A DNA stretch of 43,437 bases, taken from NCBI GenBank assembly GCA_001805645.1, contig MHGQ01000064.1, positions 1-43,437 on the forward strand, given 5' to 3'. Under the pieces are notes generated by a model that was given only the letters and a program-made list of their open reading frames with translations, did no database searches and had not been told where the DNA came from. Positions within the stretch are counted from its first letter, which is position 1; each line of letters opens with the position of its first letter. Of the stretch, positions 2 through 26,814 are shown in pieces. The position numbers and the translations under genes are program-made. The stretch is from Omnitrophica WOR_2 bacterium RIFCSPHIGHO2_02_FULL_50_17. Lineage in GTDB: Bacteria; Omnitrophota; Gorgyraeia; Zapsychrales; Zapsychraceae.

Positions 2-3000
2 GTTCTTTTCCGGGTCTTTGATTCCAACAACACCAACACGTCGCTGGATTCAGGGACGTGGGCGTCGGGACCGTATAACTATATTAAGGGTAAGTTAAGC
101 GTGGTGTCGCCGACGGACTCGGATATCTGGACGGTGGGGACGGCGTACACGCCTTCCATCCGGTGGAACAAGACGGGAAGCATCGGCAACATCAAGATTG
201 AATACTCCACGAGCGGGGCATTTAACGCGTCAGACTACACCAATGGGTATGTGTTTACGGTGGTGAACAACCTGTCGTCGGGTCCGGACGGGAATAATGA
301 TTATTCCTGGTCTGCCGGTATCGTGGGTGCTGACCGGCGGGTCTCCGAAACCGCCCGTATCCGCATTACCAACGTGACAGATATAGTTCCCCCGACGGGC
401 ACGGAATTATCAGCTGTCGCCCCGGAGGATCCGGCTTATTTTAAGATTCGCGGCGCAATCACATCCATTACTGTGCCTAACGCGGGAACGGTCTGGTACG
501 CGACCGAGACTGACACTCAAAACCAGGTGATCCGATGGATCTGCCAAAGCGGATATAAAAGCGACGGTGTCAGCTGGCCCAAAGTGGTAATTGAATCAAG
601 CGTAGATGGAGGAAGCTACTCACCCATTTCCACCCAGCAGATTGCCAACAACGGTAATCTCGATTGTCAAACTGGCACCAACACGGCTGTTTGGTCGCCG
701 ATGGCGGATTTAAGGAGCACCGACGTCAATATAAGAATTTCCTATGTCGATTATCCTATCCAATTACCTTGGTACCTTGAATCTCTTCAATTTACCGTTA
801 AGCCAAAGATCACAGTTACTTCGCCCCCCGCGGGTCAGCGTGTCGTGGTCGGGTCCAACAATGCCGGTCTTGTTAAATGGACCCGGGTGGGAACAAACAC
901 GACGCAAGTCGATGTCAAATATGACCTGTACGACGGAAAAGGCGCGAACGGCAACGCAGGGGATGGGGACGATTATGCCGGAACCATTGCCACACTGGTG
1001 GACGCCTCAACCGGCGCAACAGGCGTGGCTTGGAATAGTGTCCCCGATGTGCTGGGCAGCTGCGGCAATACAACCTGTGCGCTGGTCCGGGTCAAAGTCG
1101 TGGATTCCACTGCTTCCACGGTTTACGGGGTTACTCCCGACGGGTCACAATTCAAAATCGTCGGTTCCATTACCGTGACCGAGCCTCCGCACCCCTCCCG
1201 CGGAGCGGCCGGAAGCAATCTGAAGGTCGGAAATAACTATGTGATTAAATGGACCAAGACCGGCTCGCTTGGCAATGTGAACATCTGGTTCTCGCGGGAC
1301 GGCGGGGTCAATTTTAACGACGAGGTTCCCCCGGGAACCTCAGCCTCTTCTCTCCAATTTTCCTGGAACGGTGTACCCGCTAAACCGTCCCACAACGTGG
1401 TGATCCGCGTCGCGGATGTCAACGATTCCGACACCAATGATTGGTCGAATGTAATTCATATCCACAGAGATTACGAGATTACCGTGCCTGAGAATGGCGA
1501 GGTCTGGGCGGTGGGCGCTAGCCGTGATATCGAATGGACAACCTCTGGAAATACGACAGACCGTGTGCGCCTGCAGTATGCCACCAACGGCGGCGGCACG
1601 GGCGGAAACTGGACAACAATTACCGGAGCCGAGCAGCTCATTAATTCAAATCCCGGCATCTTTCAATGGACCGTTGACGCCCCAACCTCACCAACCGCTA
1701 AGGTAAGAGTTATTGAAGTTTTGGATTTAGACAGTAACGGAACCTATGAAACGGAAACGGACAACTGGAATGAGTCCGGTGAAACCGAAGACGCAAACGA
1801 GAATCCTATGCGCGATCCCGACACCGGAAAATTCGTGATCCGGGCGGGGCTTGAACTCGTTTCTCCAAATGGCGACCCAACCCCGGCTCTGGCCGAGAAG
1901 TGGCTTGTGGGAAGCACCCATCCTGTCCAGTGGTCCCTTATAGGCTCTGTGGCCACGGTGAGACTTGAATATTCAGTGGACGCAGGCGCGTGGCAGTTGA
2001 TGCAGAATCCGGGGCCGGTTTACGCTTCGGGACTTGATCCAGTCAATGGACAGGCCGGTTGCATGCCTTCCCCCTGCTGGGAGTGGCAGATTCCAAGCAA
2101 CATTTCCCAAGATGTCAAAGCAAGAGTTGCCAGTGAAAACACCACGCCCGCCGTGTCGGATCCCTCCGAATATTCCTTCGCGATCCGCGGCGGATTCACC
2201 TGGCTTAATCCAAACACCGCGGGTCAGATATTTAATTCCGGCCAGATTTATCAGCTCGACTGGACAACGGCCGGCGGCATAACCAACATCGACCTTGAAT
2301 ATTCAACCAACGGCGGGTCGAGTTACAGCCCGATTTTGCAGAACATTACAGGCAATCCTCCCGCGACCAACATCTCGAACGCCCCGCCTTTTAACTGGAA
2401 GATTCCGATAGACGTTGTCTCCAAAGACGTCTACGTCAAAATCACAGGCACGAATGATGATCCTAATTCCGAGACGCCTTCCCAAAAGATCAAAATCGCG
2501 GGCATATTATATGTCGATGCGCCCACAAGCAGTGTACGGTGGGGAGTCAATACACCTCAACAGATCAAGTGGCATACGGATGGCCCGATCGCCAATATTA
2601 AAATCGAGTATTCCTTGGACGGAGGCGCCAATCCAATTGTATGGGAAACGCCGGCGATTACCGACTCTGTTCCAGCCGCGGGACAAGGAAGTTGCACTCC
2701 GGCTCCGTGTTACAACTGGACGGTTCCAACGACAACTTCACCGAATGCCGTCATCCGTTTAAGCGATGTGATTACGGACAGCGGGACGACGGCTGTTCCT
2801 TCCTCGTCATTTAAGATTGTGGGAAGCTTCAGCTTTACCTCGCCGGTTTCCAGCAGCGTTTGGTCCGTTACGAACGGCGGGATTTCAAATCCGACTCAAA
2901 ACATTGTTTGGTCAACGCAGGGCGGCATCGCGCAAGTGAATGTTTGGTATTGTCCCGCGGATTGCGCTGTATCGAAAACGAAGATAAACAGCTCTCCGCT

Positions 3001-6000
3001 CCCGGACGGCGGGAACGGCGGAACGCTTCCCTGGACTGTTCAAGATGTCATTTCTACATCCATGAAGATTATGATTGAGGATAACGCGGATCCGTACCCC
3101 AATACATATAATCTGTCACAGCCTTTCACGGTCCGCGGGGATATTAATCTCACATCGCCGGTGGGGGGAGAAAAATGGGGAGTAGGCTCTCAAAAGTGGA
3201 TCACTTGGCAGAGAAACGGTGGTATAAACACTGTTCGCATTGCCTACTCTATTAGTGGAGATGTCGGGCCGTGGGCGCCTATACAAGACCCCACTGATCT
3301 TGATTATGTCTTCAGCAACAGCGGTTCCTTTCTCTGGACGGTGCTCGATGATATGACCCCTGAGGCGAGGGTCCGTGTGGAAAACGCCGATGTCAGCTCT
3401 TCAGACACGCGTTATGTGAAGACGGAATCAGGCGCCGACTTTAAGATTATGGCCAGGTTTGATTTGACGGCCCCTAACGGCGGTGAGACGGCGCTGGTCG
3501 GACAAAACTTTAACAGCCCCAACGGAATCACCTGGAACAAGTGGGGCGCGGATGCCACCAATGTGAAAATAGATCTCGCCACGGGCGTCAATGCACTTCA
3601 ACCTTGCAGTGCGGTTTCTGCCGCCTCGTTCAACAAAGAAATCACCCCGACGACGTCTAACGACGGCTCCCACCCCTGGCTTGTCGATTCCAACTGGGTG
3701 ACACCGGCGGCATGTTTGAGAATCTATGACGTCAATGACGTTGATTCAGAGGATCGGTCGGCCAGTCCATTCATTATCCGTGCAAGCCTTGGATTCGTTG
3801 AGCCTACGACAACAACGCCGGCTCTTGAAGTCGGACAGCCGTTTCTAATCATTTGGTCGAAACAGGGCAATATCGCGAACGTCAAACTTGAGTATTCACC
3901 TGGAAATAATGATTTTACGACGGATATCCGTCCGATTGAACCAACGGCAGACGGGATTGTGCCCAACATAAACGCGGCGGGTTGTGATATCACTGAAGGC
4001 TGCTACTCTTGGACGGTCCCGGACATTGAGGACACTAAAGACGAAAACATCAAACTGCGCATTCGAGACCCGAACGACAGCGGCGCCGAAGCGATCTCAG
4101 AGGTTTTTAAGATTGTGTCCAAATTAACAGTACTTTCTCCCAATGGTAATGCTGACTCGGCCCAGACGGATCAATTTAAAGTGGCCACTTCTTATCCGCT
4201 TACCTGGTCCAGCAGTTCGACCCAGGCAAGGACTCCGAACGTCAATCTTTATTATTCTACCAACGGCGGCGGCTCCTACAACATTATCACCACCACGGTA
4301 AACGACGGCTCCTATCCCTGGATTACCGCCAACGGCGGCGTCCCTGATCTGATCGGCACGGAAGTGAGGATTCGCGTTGAGGATGCCACGGAGGCCGCTC
4401 TTTGCACAAGTTCTTTGGGCACCCGCGCCTGCGATCAATCGAATAATAACTTTAAGATTATCTCCGACTTTACCCTGACCGCTCCCGACGGCGGCGGCGC
4501 TCCGCTTGAGGTCGGCGATCCGCTCACCGTCACGTGGTCCTATAAGGGCACGCTGGCAACGAATGAAGTGGAGCTGGCTTATTCCACGGCGGGGAGTGAT
4601 TTTTCAAACCCTGTCGTCTTCCAGACCACCACAACTTCAAACAACGTTTCTTCGAATCCAAATCAGGGGTCATTGGGCTGGAATGTTCCAAACGCGATTG
4701 ATTCTGATGTCCGCGTGCGGGTCCGGAGCAGGACGGACGATGGCTATGACATTTCCAGCGCCGATTTCCGCATCCGCGGTAAGCTGAGCGTCACCTCGCC
4801 TACAAATGGGCTCAAAGTCCCCATCGGACAGCCTTTCACGATCACATGGACAGCCAACGGCGATATTCCCAGCGTCGATATTTATTACGATATCAATGAC
4901 GGCAAGGGCGATGATAATATCGCGGGCACGGCCGATGACTATCCCTACCCGATAGCCGTTGGAGCCGGCGCCGCTCTCGGATGCGCGGCTTCCTTGACGC
5001 CGCCTTATCAATGCGAGGGTTCATATAATTGGGATCAAGGCGGTAACGGCGTTCCGGACACGGCAACGGCCTCGGCCAAAATCAAGATTTTTGATTCCGA
5101 CGGAGGCAATACGGACGTGATCGGGCTTTCGCCAAAGTTTAATATTATCGGAAATTTCACGCTCCTTGAACCCAACGACGGCGAAGACTGGAGAGTGAAT
5201 ACGCCTCATGATATACGGTTTAACTGGGGCGGCACCATGCACCGCGTGAATTTTTATTATACGAAGAACACCGCCGTGGATCCGTACACCATTCCCGCCG
5301 GCGACTGGGTCTTTATCGGGATGCAGGATTATGGCGCCGGTGACGGCTCGGGGGGGGCCGAGCGCGCGTTCCCCTGGACGGTTCTAGATGACATTTCTCC
5401 CAATGTCCGCGTGAAGGTGGAATTTGCCGGCAATCCGCCTCTTTACACCGGCGACTCGTCAGTGAACGATGTCTCCGATGATTTCTTCTACATCCGGGGG
5501 GCGGTTACCATTACGGCGCCCAACGGCAACATCGATGCCACGCAGACCGAGCGCTGGGTGACGTATGAAGGCGGCGCGTCGTACGAGACACAACTGGATC
5601 AGGATCTCGCTAACCAGACGATCACGGCTCAGGAGCGCGAGCAGAGGCGGCGGCAGATTCAGTGGACCGCTTCCGGCACCGTCGCGCAGGTGGATATCCT
5701 TTATGATACTTACAGCGGCAAGGGTTACGACGGCATTGCCGGAAACGCTGACGATTTTAAAAATCTTGGACTCGACGGCAACCCGGCCACGGGCGATGAA
5801 ACGCTCAACGTGATTGCCGACAATTTCTCCAACTGCACCCCGGTCTTCCCCAGCTTGACCTGCACACAGTTCTTTAACTGGGTGATCCCGGATGATCGTT
5901 CGACGGCCGTCCGCGTGCGGGTCATGGATTCGAATGATTCCGGGGTTTATGATAATTCCAATTATGACTTCAAAATCGATTACTATAACATCACATGGAA

Positions 6001-7903
6001 AGTCTTTGACCTATTGACGAACGCGCCGTTAAGCGGCCTGTCGGTCTTGGAGGTCAAATCCACGGTTCAAACCGAGATTCAATGGCAGCAGGTGGGCATT
6101 ACGACGTCGTCTCCCGAATGGCATGTTCAGCCTACACCGTTCGGCATCTGGTACGCGACGTGGTCCAAGACCGGTTACGGCGACATGGGGCAGCTTGTGA
6201 CGGCCAATCAGGATGTCACTTATCAATTGTACATGGAGACTTCAACCGTGCATATCTGGAAAGCGGCGACGGAATTCTCTTATGAACCGGATCCGGACGG
6301 CGCTGGTCCAGGGACTGACAGACTGGATGCCATATCCTGGTTAGAGAGAGACGGCTCAATCGTCCCGGGGGTTACTAAACTCGATGTTAAAATCTATGAC
6401 GGGTCAACACTCGTAAACAATCCACCCATTCTAAGTTCGACGACCGTTGATCCGGTATCCAACCTTGTCATACAGTCATGGAACGGGACGCCCCTCGCAG
6501 CCGGAAAGGTTTATTCTGTCGTAACGACAGCAGAAATCGGCACGGGAGGAAAGTTCAATTCTCCGAGCGCCTTGAATATCACCGAGGTCAAAAAGCTTGC
6601 CGCTATGGAAGCCACGATTAATGAGAAACTAGACAAGTCGTTATCGCAAGTCGAAACGGCTGTTGTAGGCGCGGTGCAAGCGAAAATGGATATTCAGACG
6701 GGCGTTATTACAGGGAAGCTGGATGCTCAGACCGCAGCTATCCAGACGACATTGACTAATTTTACGAATTCCGTTGCGTCTTCCATCGTGAGCCTGGAGA
6801 CCGCGGCCGCCAACAGCCTGGCCTCAGCTGATAAATTAGAAGATGCTGCTGTGTTAAGCCAAGATGCAGCGCTGGATTTACAAGAAATTGCTAAGAGGCA
6901 AGCGGCACGATTGCTTATCCCGCCGTCACTGACAACCGGCGAGCCCGCCCTGCTGCGTTATCGCGCCTATGCCGCCGGTTTGATACCGCTCATCGATATC
7001 CTTGACTTTAACAGTGATCCCATTTATCAAGCCGTCCCGATGACACCGGTTCCGGACAAGCCGGGATTATATGAGTTCGCTATCGACGAGATTGATTCAA
7101 GGATTTATGAGCCCCAGACCTCCATAACCGTCATCGTTACAGAGTCAACGACAGGGAGCGTGGAATCCGGCGCAATCTTCATCGAAACGGCCGTGGGTAA
7201 ACTGCTCATGCCGGGGACAGTGCTTTTAGGGGATAAGGTCATTATCCGTTTCCGCGGACGGCCCGATTGGAAACCTAAAATCACCATACAGAATTTTGAA
7301 GACAAGAAGATTGTAGACGCTGTTGCCATGAACAAGGCCAAGGACTCCGAAGATGTGTTTGAATATGTCATTACTGAAGTCGACGTTGAAAGTTATGAAC
7401 CGGGGAAACCCGCTACCGTAAGAATCGAGGAGGCGGAAACCGCGACAGTCGAAGAGGGGACATTCCTCGTTGAGTCCACCTCGCTTACAACCCTGGAAGG
7501 GCTTGTCGCCTCCGGTTCGGGGGTTAAGGCCATTGCCAGTGAGGCCTTGGATGCGATTAAAGCCGTCGAAGGGACATTGGCCACCGGCGGAGACGTCAGT
7601 CTGGCCTTGGAAAATTTAAAGATCAAACTGGATCAACTGCCGAAAATCATCGAGGAAGAAGTCGCCACTTCGCCGGTTGCCTCAGCCGTCAACGAAATCA
7701 GCGAGCAGTTCAGTGCATTTGCCGGCGAGGAAGGGTATGATTTCAGCACGCTTCTTGAGAAAGGCTTATCGGAATCGGCAACGGTGAGTGAAATTCGTGA
7801 GAAGACCGATGAGGTGCAAGGGGCCACCGAAGTCATGCAAAAGGTTATCGAGCAGAGTTTTGGAGGGGAGGATGCCCCTGTCGTGCACAGCTTCTTCCAT
7901 TAA
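2..7903 (+). CDS. Giant extracellular repeat protein, 5'-truncated by the window; tandem Kre9/KNH-like (Ser-Thr-rich) beta-sandwich repeats, then a coiled-coil segment and two related C-terminal domains
   Basis: The ORF frame stays open from base 2 upstream of the GTG at 101 (VLFRVFDSNNTNTSLDSGTWASGPYNYIKGKLSVVSP...). At least 17 repeats of the pattern 'l.vtsPngGe.w.vG....I.W...G....v.i.YS.dgg...w.vpd....vrvRv.d......s..FkI.g'. Stop TAA at 7901-7903. Confidence 0.9.
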   Translation, partial: VLFRVFDSNNTNTSLDSGTWASGPYNYIKGKLSVVSPTDSDIWTVGTAYTPSIRWNKTGSIGNIKIEYSTSGAFNASDYTNGYVFTVVNNLSSGPDGNNDYSWSAGIVGADRRVSETARIRITNVTDIVPPTGTELSAVAPEDPAYFKIRGAITSITVPNAGTVWYATETDTQNQVIRWICQSGYKSDGVSWPKVVIESSVDGGSYSPISTQQIANNGNLDCQTGTNTAVWSPMADLRSTDVNIRISYVDYPIQLPWYLESLQFTVKPKITVTSPPAGQRVVVGSNNAGLVKWTRVGTNTTQVDVKYDLYDGKGANGNAGDGDDYAGTIATLVDASTGATGVAWNSVPDVLGSCGNTTCALVRVKVVDSTASTVYGVTPDGSQFKIVGSITVTEPPHPSRGAAGSNLKVGNNYVIKWTKTGSLGNVNIWFSRDGGVNFNDEVPPGTSASSLQFSWNGVPAKPSHNVVIRVADVNDSDTNDWSNVIHIHRDYEITVPENGEVWAVGASRDIEWTTSGNTTDRVRLQYATNGGGTGGNWTTITGAEQLINSNPGIFQWTVDAPTSPTAKVRVIEVLDLDSNGTYETETDNWNESGETEDANENPMRDPDTGKFVIRAGLELVSPNGDPTPALAEKWLVGSTHPVQWSLIGSVATVRLEYSVDAGAWQLMQNPGPVYASGLDPVNGQAGCMPSPCWEWQIPSNISQDVKARVASENTTPAVSDPSEYSFAIRGGFTWLNPNTAGQIFNSGQIYQLDWTTAGGITNIDLEYSTNGGSSYSPILQNITGNPPATNISNAPPFNWKIPIDVVSKDVYVKITGTNDDPNSETPSQKIKIAGILYVDAPTSSVRWGVNTPQQIKWHTDGPIANIKIEYSLDGGANPIVWETPAITDSVPAAGQGSCTPAPCYNWTVPTTTSPNAVIRLSDVITDSGTTAVPSSSFKIVGSFSFTSPVSSSVWSVTNGGISNPTQNIVWSTQGGIAQVNVWYCPADCAVSKTKINSSPLPDGGNGGTLPWTVQDVISTSMKIMIEDNADPYPNTYNLSQPFTVRGDINLTSPVGGEKWGVGSQKWITWQRNGGINTVRIAYSISGDVGPWAPIQDPTDLDYVFSNSGSFLWTVLDDMTPEARVRVENADVSSSDTRYVKTESGADFKIMARFDLTAPNGGETALVGQNFNSPNGITWNKWGADATNVKIDLATGVNALQPCSAVSAASFNKEITPTTSNDGSHPWLVDSNWVTPAACLRIYDVNDVDSEDRSASPFIIRASLGFVEPTTTTPALEVGQPFLIIWSKQGNIANVKLEYSPGNNDFTTDIRPIEPTADGIVPNINAAGCDITEGCYSWTVPDIEDTKDENIKLRIRDPNDSGAEAISEVFKIVSKLTVLSPNGNADSAQTDQFKVATSYPLTWSSSSTQARTPNVNLYYSTNGGGSYNIITTTVNDGSYPWITANGGVPDLIGTEVRIRVEDATEAALCTSSLGTRACDQSNNNFKIISDFTLTAPDGGGAPLEVGDPLTVTWSYKGTLATNEVELAYSTAGSDFSNPVVFQTTTTSNNVSSNPNQGSLGWNVPNAIDSDVRVRVRSRTDDGYDISSADFRIRGKLSVTSPTNGLKVPIGQPFTITWTANGDIPSVDIYYDINDGKGDDNIAGTADDYPYPIAVGAGAALGCAASLTPPYQCEGSYNWDQGGNGVPDTATASAKIKIFDSDGGNTDVIGLSPKFNIIGNFTLLEPNDGEDWRVNTPHDIRFNWGGTMHRVNFYYTKNTAVDPYTIPAGDWVFIGMQDYGAGDGSGGAERAFPWTVLDDISPNVRVKVEFAGNPPLYTGDSSVNDVSDDFFYIRGAVTITAPNGNIDATQTERWVTYEGGASYETQLDQDLANQTITAQEREQRRRQIQWTASGTVAQVDILYDTYSGKGYDGIAGNADDFKNLGLDGNPATGDETLNVIADNFSNCTPVFPSLTCTQFFNWVIPDDRSTAVRVRVMDSNDSGVYDNSNYDFKIDYYNITWKVFDLLTNAPLSGLSVLEVKSTVQTEIQWQQVGITTSSPEWHVQPTPFGIWYATWSKTGYGDMGQLVTANQDVTYQLYMETSTVHIWKAATEFSYEPDPDGAGPGTDRLDAISWLERDGSIVPGVTKLDVKIYDGSTLVNNPPILSSTTVDPVSNLVIQSWNGTPLAAGKVYSVVTTAEIGTGGKFNSPSALNITEVKKLAAMEATINEKLDKSLSQVETAVVGAVQAKMDIQTGVITGKLDAQTAAIQTTLTNFTNSVASSIVSLETAAANSLASADKLEDAAVLSQDAALDLQEIAKRQAARLLIPPSLTTGEPALLRYRAYAAGLIPLIDILDFNSDPIYQAVPMTPVPDKPGLYEFAIDEIDSRIYEPQTSITVIVTESTTGSVESGAIFIETAVGKLLMPGTVLLGDKVIIRFRGRPDWKPKITIQNFEDKKIVDAVAMNKAKDSEDVFEYVITEVDVESYEPGKPATVRIEEAETATVEEGTFLVESTSLTTLEGLVASGSGVKAIASEALDAIKAVEGTLATGGDVSLALENLKIKLDQLPKIIEEEVATSPVASAVNEISEQFSAFAGEEGYDFSTLLEKGLSESATVSEIREKTDEVQGATEVMQKVIEQSFGGEDAPVVHSFFH

Positions 7904-26282: not shown

Positions 26283-26401
26283 AAAAGATATTTTATAATA
26301 GGCCTTGGGACAATTCCACTTGTTTTTAAAACATTGTCATCTCCAACTTCATTCTTTACAGCGTTGATAAAGTCTGGTATAAATAACTTCCAATTCCATC
26401 G

Positions 26402-26488
26402 ACCCTTCGACTAACCCCGGCCTGAAACCGTGGTATGCTCAGGGTTAATACTCTGAGCGGCCTATACTTTAGGCCGCCGAAGTATTAA
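26402..26488. repeat. Nested imperfect palindromes upstream of tRNA-Lys
   Basis: ttaatact (26445-26452) / agtattaa (26481-26488) enclosing gcggcct (26457-26463) / aggccgc (26471-26477); also taaccc (26412-26417) / gggtta (26442-26447). Confidence 0.8.
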
Positions 26489-26504
26489 GCATTGTGAGAA
26501 TCGC

Positions 26505-26587
26505 GGGCCATTAGCTCATTCCCGACGCTCAACTATGTTGAGGTCGGGACTCCGACTTCCGCCAAAGGCGGAACGTCGGAGCTGGTA
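26505..26587 (+). pseudogene. Partial tRNA-Lys 5' copy interrupted in the D-loop by a 62-bp double-hairpin insert (26520-26581)
   Basis: gggccattagctcat (26505-26519) + insert + ctggta (26582-26587) = 21 nt contiguous in the intact tRNA at 26620-26640. Confidence 0.8.
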
Positions 26588-26619
26588 TCGGAAGCTAATG
26601 GCATCGTAATTAAAATTTG

Positions 26620-26692
26620 GGGCCATTAGCTCATCTGGTAGAGCATCTGACTCTTAATCAGAGGGTGGCAGGTTCGAGTCCTGCATGGCCCA
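26620..26692 (+). tRNA. tRNA-Lys (anticodon CUU), no encoded CCA
   Basis: Acceptor GGGCCAT/ATGGCCC, D-arm GCTC-ATCTGGTA-GAGC, anticodon arm TCTGA-CTCTTAA-TCAGA, T-arm GCAGG-TTCGAGT-CCTGC. Confidence 0.97.
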
Positions 26693-26721
26693 TGTATTAC
26701 AGATTTTTCGGGAAGATCAAA

Positions 26722-26814
26722 TGGCAGGTTCTCCCGCCTTTTCCAAAAATTTTATTAGTTAGAAGGAAGGCGGGACCCCGCAGAAGTTTTGCGGGGGAGT
26801 CCTGCATGGCCCAT
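26722..26814 (+). pseudogene. Partial tRNA-Lys 3' copy interrupted in the T-loop by a 65-bp palindromic insert (26732-26796)
   Basis: tggcaggttc (26722-26731) + insert + gagtcctgcatggcccat (26797-26814) = 28 nt contiguous at 26666-26693. Confidence 0.82.

Follow-up and report, generated by a model that had tools for sequence, protein, structure and literature searches.

Gene-free double-hairpin elements in the loops of partial tRNA copies beside intact tRNA genes in Omnitrophota

The observations presented here suggest that hairpin elements repeatedly damage tRNA genes, and that the cell then rebuilds the gene beside the wreck (i.e. beside the damaged tRNA end with an element in its loop). 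Few genes are as conserved or as hard to dispense with as those for tRNAs, yet gene-free hairpins recur in the loops of tRNA copies; such loci offer a natural system for asking how cells survive when an essential RNA gene present in a single copy is damaged, how isoacceptors swap tRNA arms and whether single-stranded transposition takes hairpin loops as targets, and they carry a warning that automated tRNA annotation misses many interrupted copies. The central locus, a tRNA-Lys(CUU), lies in the window (the whole stretch of 43,437 nucleotides that was analysed), which derives from a draft MAG (G000: 1.92 Mb, 77 contigs, 92.8% complete). Anticodons are spelled with either T or U (CTT = CUU, CGT = CGU, TGT = UGU, TAC = UAC).

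The tRNA-Lys locus of the window

Both ARAGORN and Rfam (RF00005, 70 bits) place an intact tRNA-Lys(CTT) at positions 26620-26692 (forward strand, as for all stranded features of this locus; the palindromes are given without strand), and this gene is single-copy in the 92.8% complete genome. The original prediction, according to which the tRNA is flanked by partial copies of itself that are split within a loop (15+6 nt around a 62-bp insert in the D-loop, 10+18 nt around a 65-bp insert in the T-loop), proved exact to the base. The 5' wreck starts 115 nt upstream of the intact gene with GGGCCATTAGCTCAT (26505-26519), which is identical at 15/15 positions to the start of tRNA-Lys (26620-26634); there follow, in its D-loop, a type-1 double hairpin of 62 bp (26520-26581; layout TCCCGAC[g]CTCAAC-TAT-GTTGAG-GTCGGGA / CTCCGAC-TTCCGCC-AAA-GGCGGAA[c]GTCGGAG) and, by direct reading, the CTGGTA of the D-loop (26582-26587). 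Slightly downstream, AGCTAATGGC (26593-26602) forms the perfect complement of GCCATTAGCT (26507-26516) and closes a stem around the type-1 element. The 3' wreck is composed of TGGCAGGTTC (26722-26731; the 5' strand of the T-stem plus TTC, an exact repeat of 26666-26675), a type-2 double hairpin of 65 bp in the T-loop (26732-26796; TCCCGCCTT..AAGGCGGGA / CCCCGCAGAAGTTTTGCGGGG) and GAGTCCTGCATGGCCCA (26797-26813; the rest of the T-arm and the acceptor 3' strand, an exact repeat of 26676-26692), after which stands the same T that follows the intact gene, so that the exact repeats between wrecks and tRNA-Lys measure 15, 10 and 18 nt. Neither the 62-bp nor the 65-bp insert contains a gene or an integrase. 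The 5' piece (26505-26604) adopts a closed multi-branch fold of -60.8 kcal/mol (z = -8.8) and the 3' piece a fold of -41.2 kcal/mol (z = -4.0), with 0/200 shuffles equally stable in each case. The middle of the outer tRNA is missing, which argues against reading the locus as a tRNA with an intron.

Further upstream, at 26354-26385, we found CTTTACAG-N14-TCTGGTATAAATA, the probable ancestral promoter of tRNA-Lys, whose counterparts upstream of the tRNA-Lys of relatives (z about 5-12 against shuffles) make it appear conserved across the order. The distance between promoter and tRNA-Lys amounts to 15-31 nt in G008 and G016, to 110-254 nt in other relatives and to 234 nt in the window, where the gap is made up of the 5' wreck and a third repeated palindrome (actctgagcggcctatactttaggccgccgaagtatt, 26438-26492) situated between promoter and wreck. 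Further copies of this palindrome are present at G000:C71:3353-3405 (91%) and, within the tRNA-Ser(GCT) leader, at C43:4755-4791 (95%). As the T-arms of wreck and intact gene are identical here, the window alone cannot separate rebuilding from partial duplication. At the start of the window, apart from this locus, an open reading frame of 2600 codons (101-7903) contains many similar repeats.

Recurrence and placement of the elements

The inserts recur, both elsewhere in the source genome and in its relatives. Type 1 is an inverted dimer with TCCGAC stems and a one-base bulge in each hairpin, on mirrored sides. It occupies about 14 places in G000; a nearly full second copy lies on G000:C5 (96% over 69 nt), and partial relatives occur at about a dozen places in that genome as well as in genus g4. 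Four of the places are beside tRNAs (tRNAs together with 150 nt on each side cover <1% of the genome): the D-loop of the 5' piece at the window's tRNA-Lys, the D-loop of a degenerate tRNA piece at tRNA-Arg(TCG) on contig 5 (with a TCCCGCC hairpin then in its anticodon loop), the D-loop of a 5' piece at tRNA-Arg(CCT) on contig 22, and a 5' piece at tRNA-Thr(CGT) on contig 23. Moreover, type 1 lies within or overlaps likely c-di-GMP-I riboswitches in G000 (G000:C57:8063-8124, L150), G003 and G019 (also L141 and L145), where one of the three riboswitch matches scores above the Rfam gathering score and overlaps the element, and the other two score below it and span 140-151 nt; structured RNA genes in general may therefore be targets. 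A by-eye impression that a type-2 element of G008 (L398) had likewise entered a c-di-GMP riboswitch was dropped, given that Rfam offered no support at E 0.1. Separately, a c-di-GMP-I-GGC riboswitch on contig 52 of G000 (L394 2283-2425) is extended by an unusually long insert in its final hairpin (143 nt, where the model has 80 positions).

Type 2 follows the plan TCCCGC..GCGGGA then YCCCGC..GCGGGR, its two hairpins being inverted versions of each other in many copies, and its favoured site is TTC^. A search of 32 whole genomes of the family, in which neither TTC nor any other target was specified, recovered 14 distinct type-2 elements (the reversed pattern gave 1 match). Twelve of these are situated ≤200 nt from an intact tRNA, as compared to about 0.13 expected (our own estimate, in which tRNAs with 200 nt on each side constitute about 0.9% of such genomes), and, as read from the sequence, 9 or 10 occupy T-loops and 2 anticodon loops. 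A scan of GTDB for TTC followed by a type-2 element, which by design selects for partial copies with a palindrome, yielded at least 112 stretches; the matches listed belong mostly to Omnitrophota, and further to Saganbacteria, Patescibacteria, Kerfeldbacteria, Doudnabacteria, Uhrbacteria and others (loci L319 and L325 correspond to G003 and G025 sequences of the family set). Matches in other bacteria that have no tRNA anywhere near look fortuitous. Among the matches listed, an intact same-strand tRNA lies ≤300 nt upstream of 40 elements (9-40 nt in 28), and most elements near a tRNA follow the intact gene at a distance of 9-40 nt and occupy a T- or anticodon loop. Also among the matches listed, the flank pairs of 19/44 elements reach or exceed, in their match to the adjacent tRNA, the 99th percentile of random pairings, and the T-stem of the fragment is paired 5/5 in 15 matches (1.9 expected), though it is often unlike the T-stem of the intact gene. 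The placement is polar: 28 of the listed elements are ≤40 nt downstream of an intact tRNA, and 1 is within the same distance upstream.

Within the tRNA neighbourhoods of G000, G003, G019 and G025 the same plan of tRNA piece and element was seen many times. D-loop wrecks are situated mostly upstream of the intact gene and T-loop wrecks downstream. This polarity implies that the undamaged part of the gene stays in use and that the damaged end is set aside. At tRNA-Thr(CGT) all four species have a 5' piece whose D-arm contains a type-1 element, the flanks being recognisable and the palindromes different; the tRNA-Thr(CGU) 5' piece and its leader can still be recognised between genera g1 and g4, where the palindromes differ as well. 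G003 has two tandem 5' pieces of this kind at tRNA-Thr(TGT) and two tandem 3' pieces at tRNA-Leu(GAG), each of the latter with its own type-2 element, and such tandem wrecks suggest serial hits. In a nested arrangement, observed for G019 Cys, G025 Pro(TGG) and G003 Gly(TCC), the anticodon loop of an interrupted tRNA holds an intact tRNA of the same kind; the nested tRNAs are complete and divergent in sequence, and for Pro and Gly the inner tRNA stands between the arms of a hairpin. The presence of wrecks is patchy between sister species, and hairpin sequences turn over completely. At the tRNA-Lys loci of relatives, 15 same-strand tRNA matches of ≥9 bases were counted in the flanks (including the window's own three) versus 2.8 in shuffled flanks, most of the 38 loci having no such piece; in G008, tRNA-Lys is followed downstream by a T-loop piece very like that of the window (GGCAGGTTC^[hairpins]GACTCCTGCATGGCCCAT).

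A proposed order of damage and repair

We consider that the above is best explained by damage to tRNA genes followed by their rebuilding, an account to which we give about an even chance of being correct. Mobile double hairpins without genes, of two families (type 1 and type 2), would insert into tRNA gene loops; the 3' half of a gene would be broken by hits in its T- or anticodon loop, and the 5' half by hits in its D-loop. Function would be kept or regained by installing a working half beside the broken one (through recombination or template switching), with the replacement half sometimes taken from a sister isoacceptor; the undamaged part would stay in use, and the damaged end with its element would persist as a wreck on the side to which it belongs. 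The two wrecks around the rebuilt or retained tRNA-Lys of the window would go back to a D-loop hit (5' wreck) and a T-loop hit (3' wreck). The data demonstrate the targeting of loops and the polarity of wreck and intact gene; we infer that the hit came before the rebuilding, that a template switch took place and that single-strand transposition was the entry route.

The tRNA-Leu(CAG) of G003 is an empty site (GAGAGTTC-AAATCTC; gene end ..CATGAGAGTTCAAATCTCTCCTCCGGCACCA), with respect to which the insert at the sister species' locus is separable from its flanks, in keeping with the integration reading of the original prediction. The downstream piece at tRNA-Leu(CAG) of G019 reads GATCCTCTGAGAGTTC, element, AAATCTCTCCTCCGGCACCA, with the junctions GAGAGTTC^[element]^AAATCTCTCCTCCGGCACCA, and the sequence beyond this piece can be aligned with that which follows the G003 gene (74% over 464 nt); no target-site duplication was found at this flank-verified site. 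Judged by comparison with relatives, the older T-arm is in the wreck and the newer one in the intact gene at three loci. In G019 Leu(CAG), the wreck holds the ancestral T-arm, and the intact tRNA has its first 47 nt in common with sister G003 and a new variable arm and T-arm, for which the closest donor in the genome sets searched is the tRNA-Leu(UAA) of another species. In G025 Thr(CGT), the downstream wreck has a T-arm like those of G000 Thr(CGT) and G019 Thr(TGT), and the intact gene agrees in all of its last 32 nt with the tRNA-Thr(UGU) of the same genome; the spacer that follows the intact gene does not match the flank of that presumed template, so that its copying from tRNA-Thr(UGU) was rejected and any copied tract would have ended at the tRNA end. 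In G003 Val(TAC), the T-arm of the wreck is that of G000, and that of the intact gene is new (the genome sets searched contained no donor for it), and in G025 a tRNA-Val piece of the type intact in G003 has itself been hit in the D-arm, with a different tRNA-Val adjoining.

The original prediction had left two readings side by side. Integration aimed at tRNA loops, with a functional copy left in place, agrees well with inserts that are found in D-, anticodon and T-loops, in many tRNAs and in several phyla. Remnants of a tandem tRNA array colonised by palindromes agree less well: complete copies decaying in place should show no polarity, and the wrecks hold the ancestral T-arm in several cases. 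On account of the polarity and of the older arm in the wreck, we disfavour such decay as the main reading and prefer damage followed by rebuilding.

The main rival, which is possible though we think it rather doubtful, reverses the order of events: slippage would produce non-functional partial tandem duplications of tRNA ends, into which loop-preferring palindromes would insert later, hits in functional tRNAs being lethal and never seen. Provided that what is duplicated is a tRNA end, it would account for the polarity; it would also account for the identical T-arms of the window, and partial copies with an uninterrupted T-arm do exist (G007 tRNA-Lys, L120; G019 tRNA-Glu, L226); however, most of the partial copies seen carry a palindrome (a proportion that in the GTDB scan reflects selection for it), and an ancestral T-arm in the wreck beside a new one in the intact gene is, at three loci, opposite to the outcome expected if a useless copy drifts. 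An explanation that we regard as unlikely holds that the element carries the replacement, i.e. that a non-autonomous integrating unit restores the gene upon insertion by means of a tRNA end, or an entire tRNA, that it brings along (like the attP of tRNA-integrating elements). Complete, divergent tRNAs inside interrupted tRNAs of the same kind (G019 Cys, G025 Pro and G003 Gly) would fit such a unit, but inverted repeats of ≥8 bp that enclose tRNAs show no enrichment (12 versus 9.2 expected from re-paired flanks), for which reason the hairpin-flanked tRNA was rejected as a general cargo; furthermore, G019 Leu(CAG) begins with the same 47 nt as its sister species and not with foreign sequence, and the insert is without an integrase. 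Quite improbable, in our estimation, is a selected RNA function, with the 5' and 3' pieces as leader and trailer structures of the tRNA transcript (e.g. in processing or as decoys): the strong folds of both window pieces, the persistence of the Thr(CGU) 5' piece and leader from g1 to g4 in spite of differing palindromes, and the position of type 1 within a likely riboswitch speak for it, and the patchiness between sister species, the many tRNA-Lys loci devoid of a piece and the complete turnover of the hairpins speak against it. Assembly artefact or chance can practically be dismissed, for even though G000 is a draft of 77 contigs, the same architecture recurs in many independent MAGs and at orthologous loci (including the tRNA-Thr(CGU) loci of four species), with exact 15- and 17-nt repeats.

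Damage followed by rebuilding has difficulties of its own: no enzyme is linked to the elements, and the three nested two-tRNA cases need extra steps. Since an essential tRNA must survive between hit and repair, a sister chromosome or another copy of the gene is implied. It is our guess that a preference for single-stranded hairpin loops, if there is one, would suit a Y1 enzyme. G000 encodes two REP-type Y1 transposases (Y1_Tnp; G000:C64:47603-47932 and C66:12527-12760); neither TCCGAC nor TCCCGC palindromes were found at the flanks of these two genes, the second of which is flanked by a different palindrome (GCACCACCTACGAGGTGGTGC), and with no common palindrome at their flanks the RAYT genes of G000 were rejected as the source of the elements. 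More tentatively than the account itself, we put forward that, in Omnitrophota and further uncultured phyla, tiny palindromes specialised in tRNA loops keep essential single-copy tRNA genes turning over, and that each hit would force a rebuild (often with the arm of a sister isoacceptor) and leave a wreck; if this is true, tRNA loci hold a fossil record of serial replacement.

Relation to known systems

Double-hairpin elements of Allomyces mitochondria consist of two adjacent hairpins, and it is such organellar elements, together with the REP/BIME repeats, that are the nearest relatives in form. The presence of two adjacent hairpins at many sites, structured RNA genes among them, is shared with the elements described here, which are bacterial, whereas the organellar ones reside in mitochondrial or plastid genomes. 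The repetitive hairpin-forming elements of sponge mitochondria are apparently mobile and sometimes lie in rRNA genes without removal at the RNA level, and the parts of that account available to us do not describe an intact tRNA beside a wreck (PMC2800124). REP/BIME sequences, as far as the available parts of a survey describe them, are palindromes of 20-40 nt without genes, frequently arranged as inverted dimers; their stems are imperfect, they bear GTAG or CGTC tags and are considered mobile, and those of the CGTC families have no dedicated transposase adjoining (PMC3733652). Short imperfect palindromes, inverted dimers and several copies per genome are likewise found here; however, both elements lack an unpaired GTAG or CGTC tag at the stem foot (CGTC is found only inside the type-1 stem), and neither of the two Y1_Tnp genes is a RAYT gene flanked by the same palindrome, for which reasons we do not class the elements as REPs, in spite of their REP-like look. 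They are also lower in copy number and have a striking preference for tRNA loops, of which the portion of the survey available to us makes no mention (PMC3733652).

Our literature search (incomplete in coverage, with few subscription papers) returned no report of palindromes occupying bacterial tRNA loops beside rebuilt genes. Cyanobacterial small dispersed repeats, reportedly described by Elhai in 2008, are said to be very small and to lie within structured RNA genes; to our knowledge they have not been described as splitting tRNA loops beside an intact copy. Elements that integrate into tRNA genes (tycheposons included) are kilobases long and encode an integrase, and the tRNA that they interrupt is restored, with a partial tRNA at the far junction. 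An intact tRNA and a partial copy at the other junction are found at our loci as well, but the elements here are 60-110 bp long and gene-free, with no integrase inside, and hits in the D-loop leave a 5' piece. At tyrT of E. coli, 178-bp downstream repeats contain the tRNA 3' end and, unlike the loci described here, no palindromic element in the T-loop. Reminiscent of them are two tandem repeats of ~119 bp downstream of a tRNA-Lys in G009 (contig 14, L083), each of which ends in the tRNA 3' end GCATGGCCCA.
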